DNA of 64,000 bases from Gillisia mitskevichiae (lineage in GTDB: Bacteria > Bacteroidota > Bacteroidia > Flavobacteriales > Flavobacteriaceae): assembly GCF_003634585.1 (NCBI RefSeq), contig NZ_RBLG01000001.1:992001-1056000 (forward strand), in the 5' to 3' direction. Shown piece after piece: positions 10,146 through 12,951 of the stretch (within the stretch, counting starts at the first letter, position 1; every line of letters begins with the position of its first letter). The position numbers and the translations under genes were made by a program. The notes below the pieces were generated by a model that was not told where the DNA came from, did no database searches, and was given only the letters and a program-made list of their open reading frames with translations.

Positions 10146-11168
10146 ATGAACGAGCATCTAGACCCAACCGGTGAGAATTTTTCTTCAGAAGAATTAGATA
10201 TAGACAGAGCATTACGTCCTCTCAGTTTCGACGATTTTGCCGGGCAGGATCAAGTACTGGAGAACCTTAAGATCTTTGTTGAAGCAGCCAATCAACGTGG
10301 GGAAGCTTTAGATCACACCTTATTCCACGGTCCTCCGGGACTTGGTAAGACCACTTTAGCGCATATTCTTGCCAATGAGCTGCAAGTTGGTATAAAAGTG
10401 ACCTCGGGTCCTGTTATAGACAAACCAGGAGATCTTGCAGGATTGCTTACCAATCTTGAAGAGCGAGATGTGCTTTTTATAGATGAGATCCATAGATTAA
10501 GTCCGATTGTTGAAGAATATCTTTATTCTGCAATGGAAGATTACAAGATAGATATCATGATCGAGACCGGGCCAAATGCCCGTACTGTGCAGATCAACTT
10601 AAATCCATTTACACTTATTGGTGCTACTACTCGTTCTGGACTGCTTACTTCCCCAATGAGAGCAAGGTTTGGAATCTCTAGCCGACTACAATATTATACT
10701 ACAGAATTACTTTCAACCATTCTTCAGCGTAGTGCAGATATTCTAAATGTGCCTTTGTCCTTGGACGCAGCTATTGAGATTGCTGGACGTAGTAGAGGGA
10801 CACCTCGTATTGCAAATGCTTTATTGCGCAGAGTTCGGGATTTTGCACAGATAAAAGGAAATGGTAAGATAGACATGGAGATCGCAAAATATAGTCTTAA
10901 GGCTTTAAACGTAGATGCTCATGGCTTAGATGAAATGGATAATAAGATATTAACCACCATCATAGACAAGTTCAAAGGCGGGCCAGTAGGTATTTCTACA
11001 TTAGCCACTGCAGTAAGTGAAAATGCAGAAACTATTGAAGAAGTATATGAGCCATTTTTAATCCAACAAGGATTTATTTTTAGAACTCCAAGAGGTCGCG
11101 AAGTAACCGAAGCAGCTTACAAACACTTAGGAAGAATTAAAGGTTCTACTCAAGGCGGACTTTTTTAG
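10146..11168 (+). CDS. ruvB: Holliday junction branch migration ATPase RuvB
   Basis: A 340-residue RuvB at normal family length. Walker A is GPPGLGKTT (residues 62-70) and Walker B is FIDEIH (111-116). The sensor region GATTRSG and the C-terminal winged helix (from about 260) are present. RuvB drives branch migration with RuvA, whose gene is 7 kb downstream at 17186. The gene has its own space after the coxA terminator. Immediately after its stop lies the first of the two hairpin repeats. Confidence 0.96.
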
Positions 11169-11182
11169 AATTGAATTTTCGA

Positions 11183-11208
11183 TGTCAGGCTGAGCGCAGT
11201 CGAAGCCT
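11183..11208 (+). repeat. 26-nt hairpin repeat, left copy
   Basis: The element begins TGTCA, then a 5-bp stem AGGCT...AGCCT encloses the 12-nt loop GAGCGCAGTCGA. It lies 14 bases after the ruvB stop. The same unit occurs inverted at 11576-11601. The two differ at four bases only, all in the stem and all compensated. It is GC-rich compared with the flanking DNA. Confidence 0.85.
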
Positions 11209-11240
11209 ATTATAAATTTGTTCTTAACTTAATAGGTGTT

Positions 11241-11555
11241 ATGTATTGCTATTCAGTATATATTTTAAGATGCAACGATAATTCTTACTATACTGGAATA
11301 ACTAATAACATGGAGAGAAGACTATCTGAGCATGATGATGGATTGAATTCTAAATGTTATACATTCAAACGACGGCCATTAAAATTAGTTTTTGAAAAAG
11401 AGTTTGGAAATGTTTTACAAGCAATTAGTTTTGAAAAGAGATTAAAAGGTTGGTCTAAGGCGAAAAAGGATGCTTTAATTAAAAATGAATTCGAAAGATT
11501 GCAAGTTCTTTCCGAGTGTAGGAACGCTACACATTTCAAGTTTAAGCCAGATTAA
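11241..11555 (+). CDS. Small GIY-YIG domain endonuclease
   Basis: A 104-residue single-domain protein of the GIY-YIG (UPF0213/COG2827-like) type. The first strand pair reads YSVYILRC...YYTGITN, the catalytic-type Arg lies in NMERRLSEH (about residues 24-32), and the metal-binding Glu lies in ISFEKRLKGWSKAKK (about 62-76). No extra DNA-binding domain is visible apart from the basic C-terminal helix. The family cuts DNA, but substrates of these small members are poorly defined. The gene is flanked by inverted hairpin repeats at 11183-11208 and 11576-11601, which suggests the hairpin is its substrate or that the unit moved as a block. Confidence 0.85.
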   Translation: MYCYSVYILRCNDNSYYTGITNNMERRLSEHDDGLNSKCYTFKRRPLKLVFEKEFGNVLQAISFEKRLKGWSKAKKDALIKNEFERLQVLSECRNATHFKFKPD

Positions 11556-11575
11556 TTTAATTCATCTTAATGAAG

Positions 11576-11601
11576 ACACTTCGACTGCGCTCAGTGTGAC
11601 A
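11576..11601 (-). repeat. 26-nt hairpin repeat, right inverted copy
   Basis: Read on the minus strand it begins TGTCA, with stem ACACT...AGTGT around the same 12-nt loop GAGCGCAGTCGA found in the left copy. Positions 6/25 and 7/24 of the unit changed from G-C and G-C to C-G and A-T, so pairing is preserved. It lies 20 bases after the GIY-YIG stop and 21 bases before the P450 start. Confidence 0.85.
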
Positions 11602-11622
11602 TTAATAAATAATTTTCAAATA

Positions 11623-12951
11623 ATGAAGTCTAAAATACCCCAAGTTTCATTTCTAAAATTTTTAAAGCATGCCTCAAATATCTTAAAAAACCCGCTACCC
11701 TTTCATCATAATAATTTTGAAGAGCATGGAGATACCTTCAGATTAATTATTGGTCCAGGGAAATCTGTGGTCTTTTCAAGAGATGCTTATTTAGCTGAAT
11801 ATGTACTTCAAAAAAATCAGAAGAATTATACAAAATCCCCTATCCAGACCAAAGATCTTGTAAAATATGTAGGTCGAGGCTTATTAACATCCGAAGGGGA
11901 ACATTGGAAAAAGCAACGAAAGTTAATTCAGCCTGCATTCCATAAAAAGCAACTCACTTTGTTGCTAGATAGTATTCATAAAGCAATCATTACCGAACTA
12001 AATAAAATTGAAACCGATACCGAAATAGATATTTTTCCGGTATTTAATGATCTAGCTTTCCAAACGGTAGTGAAGTCTTTATTCAGCAGTGCTGTGGGAG
12101 ATAAAGATATTGCCCGATTGCAATATATTACGGAAGCTGCTCAAAAAATGCTGGTGAAAGAACTTCGTCAGCCGTTTTTAAGTCTGTGGTTTAAATATGG
12201 AGGAGAAATTAAAAAGCATACCGATCTAACGGATGAAGCCCGCGTAATTCTTAAGAAACTGGTAGATCAAAGAAAAGAAAGTGGTATTCGAGAAAATGAC
12301 CTTTTAGATATGCTACTTGATGCTAGGTATGAAGATGGAAACGAAATGGACGAAGAACAACTAATAGATGAGATCTTGATCCTTTTCACCGCTGGTCATG
12401 AAACAACTTCTAATGCTCTCACTTTTGCAGCCGAACTACTTGCAAGAGATCCAGAGTCTCAACAAAAGATCTTTGCGGAAGTTGTAAAAGCAAAACAGGA
12501 AACAGATTCCTTAATGGCATTTATTCAAGCTTGTAGTTATACAAAAAAGGTGATAGAAGAAACTATGAGGTTGTATCCGCCTGCTTATTTTATAGACCGA
12601 GTTAATCTTGAAGCCGATTCTTTTGAAGGTATGGAGATCCCGAAAGGTTCTAATCTATTGTTTTCATTTTATGAGATCCATAAACATAAAGCACATTGGA
12701 AAGATCCAGAAAAATTTGATCCCGAAAGATTTTCAAATTCAGACCCTTATTTACACACGCCATTTTATGCCCCTTTTGGAGCAGGGCCAAGAAAATGCAT
12801 TGGGAATAATTTTGCGATGTTCGAAATGATATTGGCGGTTGCGGAATTAATCGAGAAATATAAGATCGCTCCAAAAACAACTCCAATAGAAATTCTCCCG
12901 TTGATCACCTTGAAGCCTAAAAACGCAATTTTAAGGTTTCAAAAGAGATAG
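11623..12951 (+). CDS. Cytochrome P450
   Basis: A 442-residue soluble bacterial P450. The I-helix oxygen-activation motif is AGHETT (about residues 257-262), the K-helix ExxR is ETMR (313-316), and the heme-binding loop is [10 protein letters not shown] with Cys392 as the thiolate ligand. The substrate cannot be predicted. The open frame extends 46 codons upstream to 11485, but that extension runs through the repeat and overlaps the GIY-YIG gene, so the ATG at 11623 is preferred; it matches usual P450 N-termini. No redox partner gene is adjacent. queG starts 5 bases after the stop, so the two are probably co-transcribed. Confidence 0.93.

Follow-up and report, generated by a model that had tools for sequence, protein, structure and literature searches.

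In RAYT (TnpA-REP) systems, a small nuclease gene is flanked by inverted palindromes that carry a conserved 5' tetranucleotide, as described in two papers (PMC2817692, PMC8266576). Palindromic repeats tagged with GTAG or CGTC occur in several phyla, those with CGTC including repeats of Bacteroidetes, according to a further paper, in whose main text a word search found no word beginning with GTCA or GIY (PMC3733652). The text of a 2006 survey of the GIY-YIG superfamily (PMC1564403) gave no match to 'palindrom' in a word search. No coupling of GIY-YIG or UPF0213 proteins to REP, RAYT, REPIN or repeats was found in titles and the beginnings of abstracts, a search field outside which most subscription papers lie, and a literature search with the letters of the repeat described below returned unrelated titles only. 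To our knowledge, the REP systems described so far rest on one enzyme fold. A paper from 2025 reportedly describes Ssn, a GIY-YIG nuclease of Neisseria that acts site-specifically on single-stranded DNA, at a site repeated in the genome, and that has numerous homologs.

Here, a GIY-YIG nuclease gene and two inverted hairpins that enclose it are compared with these systems. We give a probability of about 0.75 to the explanation, taken as a whole, that the gene and its two hairpins constitute a REP-nuclease pair in which a GIY-YIG enzyme takes the place of a Y1 transposase.

The GIY-YIG gene and its flanking hairpins

The window, which is the whole 64,000-nucleotide stretch of DNA that was analysed (G000:C1:992001-1056000), belongs to the 3.59 Mb genome of Gillisia mitskevichiae, which its relatives place in the Flavobacteriaceae. 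The locus within it is organized as follows:

10146..11168, + strand: ruvB, the conserved left neighbour (Pfam)
11183..11208, + strand: left hairpin, with an outward-pointing TGTCA tag, stem AGGCT/AGCCT and core GAGCGCAGTCGA
11241..11555, + strand: GIY-YIG nuclease gene, 104 amino acids, hairpin class A-T, UPF0213-like fold
11576..11601, - strand: right hairpin, with an outward-pointing TGTCA tag, stem ACACT/AGTGT and again the core GAGCGCAGTCGA
11623..12951, + strand: cytochrome P450 gene, the right neighbour (Pfam)

The original prediction placed a 104-residue GIY-YIG gene between inverted hairpins in a ruvB-P450-queG neighbourhood; the gene at 11241-11555 lies between hairpins at 11183-11208 and 11576-11601, and the neighbourhood is confirmed by Pfam. 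The protein matches PF01541 with 68.3 bits, compared with a cut-off of 22.6, and PADLOC and NCBIfam gave no informative match. Its predicted fold (pLDDT 88.6) matches UPF0213 and, more weakly, Slx1, and the closest solved relatives by both sequence and fold are UPF0213/Slx1 GIY-YIG proteins (PDB 1zg2, 1ywl, 7cq2). According to PDB titles, Slx1-Slx4 acts on branched DNA; the Slx1 chains are larger than the window protein. Residues Y17, G19, R27, H31 and E65 are invariant in 20 proteins. Positions Y17, R27, H31 and E65 are presumably those of the GIY-YIG active site, and the protein, with PF01541 and these presumed catalytic positions conserved, is a member of the GIY-YIG superfamily.

RAYT proteins are Y1 tyrosine transposases of the IS200/IS605 family, whereas the window protein has a GIY-YIG fold and matches PF01541 only. 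By its defining domain, the window system is not a RAYT. The likeness lies in the arrangement of flanking inverted palindromes, the tagged 5' end and the presence of several gene-palindrome pairs per genome.

The stems of the left and right window hairpins are unlike in sequence and each is self-complementary, with the fifth stem pair of both taking in the last A of the tag. The hairpins share 12 conserved nucleotides, as had been predicted; this segment is, however, the hairpin core GAGCGCAGTCGA and not simply a loop. The exact 16-mer CTTCGACTGCGCTCAG occurs at two places in the genome, both at the window gene. When up to three mismatches are allowed, it is found at 23 places in the genome, compared with two for the reversed control, and some of the 21 looser places surely arose by chance; the window holds two such matches versus 0.11 expected from shuffles. 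The pattern of the hairpin family has 22 copies in this genome.

Hairpins are concentrated at one subfamily of GIY-YIG genes

Homologs were sampled as 90 match rows at E <= 1e-12, distributed over 58 of 149 genomes of the family. Four of the 90 rows were left out, and the 86 genes used (from 56 genomes, the window gene included) were analysed together with as much as 10 kb of flanking sequence per side; 67 of them have intact reading frames. Of the 86 homologs, 77 have within 250 bp a general hairpin, defined as a stem of at least 4 bp around GAG...TCGA. Its density is 5.1 per kb near the gene versus 0.05 per kb at a distance of 4-9 kb, where it is about 100-fold rarer, and seven control motifs occur near the same 86 homologs at 0-0.05 per kb. 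The link between hairpin and gene is therefore not coincidental.

Since the GAG...TCGA motif was chosen after inspection of the same 86 loci, it was tested separately on a held-out set. This set comprised the best 80 of 536 loci from named genomes, picked for likeness to the subfamily, of which 79 were used after the duplicate L174 had been dropped. Within 300 bp, the hairpin is present at all 50 Flavobacteria-like genes and at 27 of the 29 others among these 79 from the best 80 of 536. The corresponding densities in this selection are 5.5 and 4.5 per kb and drop to 0.035 and 0.049 per kb at distances of more than 1.5 kb, and six control motifs reach 0-0.24 per kb near the same best-ranked genes. 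The 29 loci labelled other than Flavobacteriaceae form the cleaner part of the set, with some of them belonging to other Flavobacteriales. Metagenome-assembled genomes (MAGs) labelled Nitrospirae, Nitrospinota, Spirochaetales, Deltaproteobacteria and Eremiobacterota are among the sources of the 27 hairpin-bearing others, and such labels can be wrong. Genes from two MAGs labelled Rhodobacteraceae and Saprospiraceae (L176 and L181) are 99% identical to each other, and the Rhodobacteraceae-labelled one is 94% identical to a Flavobacteriaceae gene beside ruvB; the two contigs, with their Flavobacteriaceae-like ruvB neighbours, are probably binning errors, to judge from these identities. A repeat scattered independently of GIY-YIG genes had been named as the outcome that would speak against the original prediction; the hairpin is instead concentrated at this subfamily.

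The sides on which hairpins occur were counted for 159 genes, after six of 165 had been dropped for flanks shorter than 150 bp. A classified hairpin lies within 300 bp on both sides of 94 of the 159 genes, on the left only of 37, on the right only of 12 and on neither side of 16. By contrast, RAYT genes are described as always located between two inverted REPs. The nearest flanking pair is outward-pointing in 61 of the 94 cases and arranged otherwise in 33.

The folding energies of the window hairpins are unremarkable relative to shuffles (z -0.32 and -0.04) and cannot serve as evidence of a hairpin; the hairpin call therefore rests on covariation. This was assessed in 251 distinct short-core-class copies near genes, picked without a stem requirement. 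Watson-Crick pairing holds for 94, 92, 90 and 83% of the copies at stem pairs -1 to -4, compared with 53, 49, 26 and 29% when shuffled, and all four pair types are present at pairs -3 and -4. Family-wide covariation is confined to these four stem pairs. The bases of the TGTCA tag are 79-90% conserved and pair no more than expected by chance. GTCA, found in 315 of 386 hairpins, differs from the GTAG or GTGG reported for RAYT/REP. Where GAG faces TCGA, the core may form a tandem G.A mismatch; a mismatched stem is also a feature of RAYT/REP, in the E. coli type.

Hairpin class follows the protein clade

Four core classes, A-T, A-C, B and C, were scored, with labels assigned by author-written regular expressions. 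On a tree of 192 proteins, in which further palindrome types and 'none' were pooled as one group, the hairpin class needs 37 changes versus 93.3 when shuffled, with 0 of 200 shuffles as low; the tree has few columns and many unresolved forks, and near-copies help the change count. For 134 of 148 genes, the class agrees with that of the nearest foreign protein less than 95% identical, where 28% would be expected (17 of 165 genes, which have no classified hairpin, were excluded). In the 11 genomes with several classes, such agreement is seen for 28 of 29 genes, among which are three tandem pairs; another three genomes each have two genes that belong to a single class. Therefore, it is the protein, and not the host, that the hairpin follows. 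The protein positions that are informative of class lie mainly in the C-terminal tail, in a signal that still contains shared descent, and they set class A apart from B and C and hardly separate A-T from A-C. Across many bacteria, each enzyme clade tends to bring its own hairpin, a correspondence which suggests that the hairpin is the recognition target of the enzyme.

The genome of the window holds two further members of the subfamily. One of these paralogs (C1:796309) has flanking hairpins of another class, TCGAGCGGAGTCGAGA, and the second (C2:956197; L091, G000:C2:946400-966300) has an in-frame TAG stop and is located amid many hairpins of a third class, B (CTGAGCCTGTCGAAG). Seven other GIY-YIG matches are present in the genome; for the five that have loci (L004-L008), roughly 1.5 kb of surrounding DNA contains no hairpin of this kind.

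Among more distant GIY-YIG homologs, the GAG...TCGA hairpin is found at one of 30 loci (L281-L310). The flanks of 26 of these were compared with each other, four being left out, and many of the 26 share other palindromes between both flanks, several of them GTCA-tagged, in a comparison that had no control. The palindromes in this comparison without a control are of the GTCAT-CTGAACTTGTTTCAG, GTCATTCCTG-GGCAGGAATC and GTCATTGCGA types. Different small GIY-YIG genes are located near tRNA genes at L005 (C1:534694-537915 of the window genome), L293, L299, L300, L301 and L306, with tRNAs labelled by ARAGORN as Asn, SeC, Val and Arg; L295 joins this set by sequence only. These genes have direct repeats on both sides that resemble pieces of tRNA or a terminator and are not hairpins, and they may represent a further GIY-YIG unit that is linked to tRNA genes. 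At L104, L107, L131 and L139, in genomes G013, G148, G108 and G128, copies of GIY-YIG genes lie next to each other and are accompanied by repeat arrays.

Outward hairpin pairs at dispersed sites

REPIN-like pairs were defined by outward tags and a spacer of 8-38 bp. There are 45 outward pairs in 25 of the 149 genomes, compared with eight inward pairs in eight genomes; three of these inward pairs adjoin GIY-YIG genes. The outward pairs resemble the gene-free inverted pairs (REPINs) of RAYT genomes. Pairs that are alike occur at separate sites in three genomes: at four in G125 (85-97%), three in G024 (90-94%) and two in G138 (95%). The likeness reaches beyond the pair and, in G125 and G024, continues into a palindrome that surrounds it. 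Thus, inverted outward pairs are repeated at dispersed genome sites, as REPINs are, possibly as parts of a longer repeated unit. To judge from these copies, it is probably the hairpin pairs, and not the gene, that disperse. Four genomes that have no close homolog (G019, G080, G084 and G098) account for nine of the 45 outward pairs, five of them in G084; therefore, either the gene was lost there or another source made the pairs.

The outer palindrome around the outward pairs of G125 and G024 (L331-L337) is of a similar type, AGAGGCTGTCTAAAAA...TTTTTAGACAGCCTCT, and resembles a bidirectional terminator, the loop of which may be a target.

The dispersed pairs bear on an Ssn-like role, in which the protein is a site-specific single-stranded DNA nuclease and the hairpins are marks in the genome, for control of uptake, replication or repair, that do not disperse. 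Such a role has the recognition step in common with the REP-nuclease explanation and differs from it in the purpose of cutting. It is favoured by the shared nuclease superfamily and the repeated target sites reported for Neisseria, by the gene being an old resident that is conserved together with its hairpins, and by modest copy numbers (22 in the window genome). However, the near-identical REPIN-like pairs at four sites of G125 and three of G024 point to dispersal, and the genes are patchily distributed, being present in 58 of 149 genomes. We take this role seriously as a possibility, and would sooner bet against it than for it. Ssn, as reported, resembles the window system in having a GIY-YIG enzyme and a repeated genomic site; in the window system the repeated site is observed and the cleavage is predicted. 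Set against the reported description of Ssn, the covarying stem, the GTCA tag and the clade-specific cores belong to the window system. The novelty of the window system is uncertain, because the Ssn family may cover these genes.

The gene as an old resident near ruvB

The original prediction also proposed a possible self-contained mobile unit; as a recently mobile one, the gene and both hairpins would transpose together. Such a unit would be in keeping with the outward inverted flanks of 61 of 94 genes and with the patchy presence of the family in 58 of 149 genomes. Within the genus, ruvB was found in 15 genomes, the window's included, and the gene lies within 1.5 kb after ruvB only in the window genome; in 11 of the 14 others, a P450 gene follows ruvB at a distance of no more than 1 kb, without the GIY-YIG gene, as a mobile unit might leave them. 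One of these gene-free ruvB-P450 intervals is about 40 bp long, and in a sister genome (L143) a lone GTCA hairpin is located between ruvB and the P450 gene, where the window has its left one. One dispersed pair of genes in G106, 87.7% identical, is the nearest approach to gene copies at unrelated sites.

Against recent mobility, 22 of 165 loci, which come from several genera and include the window, have the gene no more than 2 kb from ruvB, in a sample that favours window-like genes; gene and ruvB are co-oriented in 21 of the 22. Because other genera hold the gene at that place, the gene-free intervals in sister genomes, which the original prediction had suggested comparing as empty sites, are best read as losses, although a return of the gene to that site is conceivable. 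Pairs of genes from different genomes share at least two flanking proteins in nine of nine cases at 90% identity or more and in 34 of 66 at 80-90%, and the other four of the five same-genome pairs that are at least 80% identical are local tandems. No target-site duplication or clean insertion of a gene unit was found at the loci compared; neither clean insertions nor identical copies at unrelated sites, which characterize IS-like mobile elements, were seen. A recently mobile unit is thus unsupported, and we regard it as quite unlikely; the gene itself is mostly not mobile and is an old resident near ruvB.

A recent insertion with target-site duplication is unsupported, the ruvB locus being common to several genera, and the long direct repeats beside some genes, considered as large target duplications, for the most part contain hairpins or hairpin arrays.

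The absence of flanking repeats from orthologous loci had been named as evidence against the coupling; all 22 ruvB-locus genes carry class A-T hairpins, 15 on both sides and seven on one. Their stems are as in the window: on the left, 18 of 21 nearest hairpins have GGCT, and on the right, 14 of 16 have CACT or GGCT.

Hairpin copies track the GIY-YIG gene

The class-A pattern is present in 46 of 58 genomes with the gene versus 29 of 91 without it, with medians of seven and zero copies. The association has a Fisher p of 1.5e-8 over 149 genomes, nearly one per genus and uncorrected for kinship. The reversed pattern was found in 0 of the 149 genomes. Y1 domains occur in 49 of these genomes; PF01797 has no match in the window genome at E <= 1e-5. 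The hairpin is near the Y1 transposase gene at one of 20 loci, and no genome-wide correlation between Y1 transposases and hairpin copies was found (p 0.16, 149 genomes). In Y1-free genomes, the link to the GIY-YIG gene persists (28 of 46 versus 9 of 54, p 8e-6). Since the copies track the GIY-YIG gene and not Y1, the comparison with RAYT/REP stands, with a nuclease of a different fold; the predicted link between a non-Y1 nuclease and inverted hairpins of its own is supported by the concentration of hairpins at this subfamily and by the class A-T hairpins at all 22 ruvB-locus genes.

At least five repeats are present in 11 genomes without a close homolog, and three of the 11 have no homolog even at E <= 1e-6. 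Diverged homologs were considered as an explanation for these repeats and rejected: they are present in eight of the 11 repeat-rich and seven of 11 repeat-free genomes (22 of the 91), and 29 of 30 of their loci have no GAG...TCGA hairpin.

In a reading at the level of RNA, the hairpins would flank the transcript and the protein would bind or cut its own mRNA as autoregulation. The hairpin edges are indeed close to the start codon (median 32 bp) and the stop codon (median 19.5 bp). However, hairpins occur genome-wide in both orientations, also away from the gene, and Rfam has no match over 11000-11750, which makes autoregulation very unlikely. That the hairpins belong to another enzyme, of the Y1/RAYT kind, or are ordinary terminators to which the GIY-YIG gene is incidentally adjacent, can be dismissed as extremely improbable: Y1 domains in 49 of 149 family genomes and the location of dispersed pairs inside terminator-like palindromes agree with it, but the hairpin at one of 20 Y1 loci, the lack of correlation across the genomes and of Y1 in the window genome, and the clade-specific matching to GIY-YIG proteins, including 28 of 29 genes within genomes, do not. 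The Y1 transposase was accordingly rejected as the true partner of the hairpin.

Proposed mechanism and implications

In the preferred explanation, a REP-nuclease pair on a GIY-YIG enzyme, the protein would recognize the hairpin as folded single-stranded DNA with a 5' GTCA tag, a paired stem of free sequence and a fixed GAG...TCGA core, and would nick at or near the hairpin, close to the tag. Each protein clade would have its own core class, A-T, A-C, B or C. The C-terminal tail is a candidate reader of the difference between class A and classes B and C, and not of that between A-T and A-C. The gene would stay at its old locus, being mainly inherited and lost, while outward gene-free pairs of about 70 bp, of the REPIN-like kind, would be what disperses in the genome, driven by the enzyme. 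GIY-YIG enzymes hydrolyse DNA and are not known to form a covalent intermediate; joining would therefore need host repair. Because of the dispersed pairs, a role of cutting in the spread of hairpins is ranked somewhat ahead of one in DNA uptake or upkeep.

More broadly, GIY-YIG enzymes may be a second, independent kind of REP nuclease, convergent with RAYTs, in which GTCA-tagged single-stranded DNA hairpins are read clade by clade and spread in a REPIN-like manner in several phyla, with further subfamilies using other palindromes. We advance this generalization tentatively, at slightly less than even odds. If it is true, clade-level matching between another fold and its own hairpins would be a case of convergent domestication. 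The widespread GTCA-tagged repeats, for which no partner enzyme was found in the literature searched, would then have one, and the family would provide a natural set of single-stranded DNA nucleases whose specificity is readable from the neighbouring DNA.
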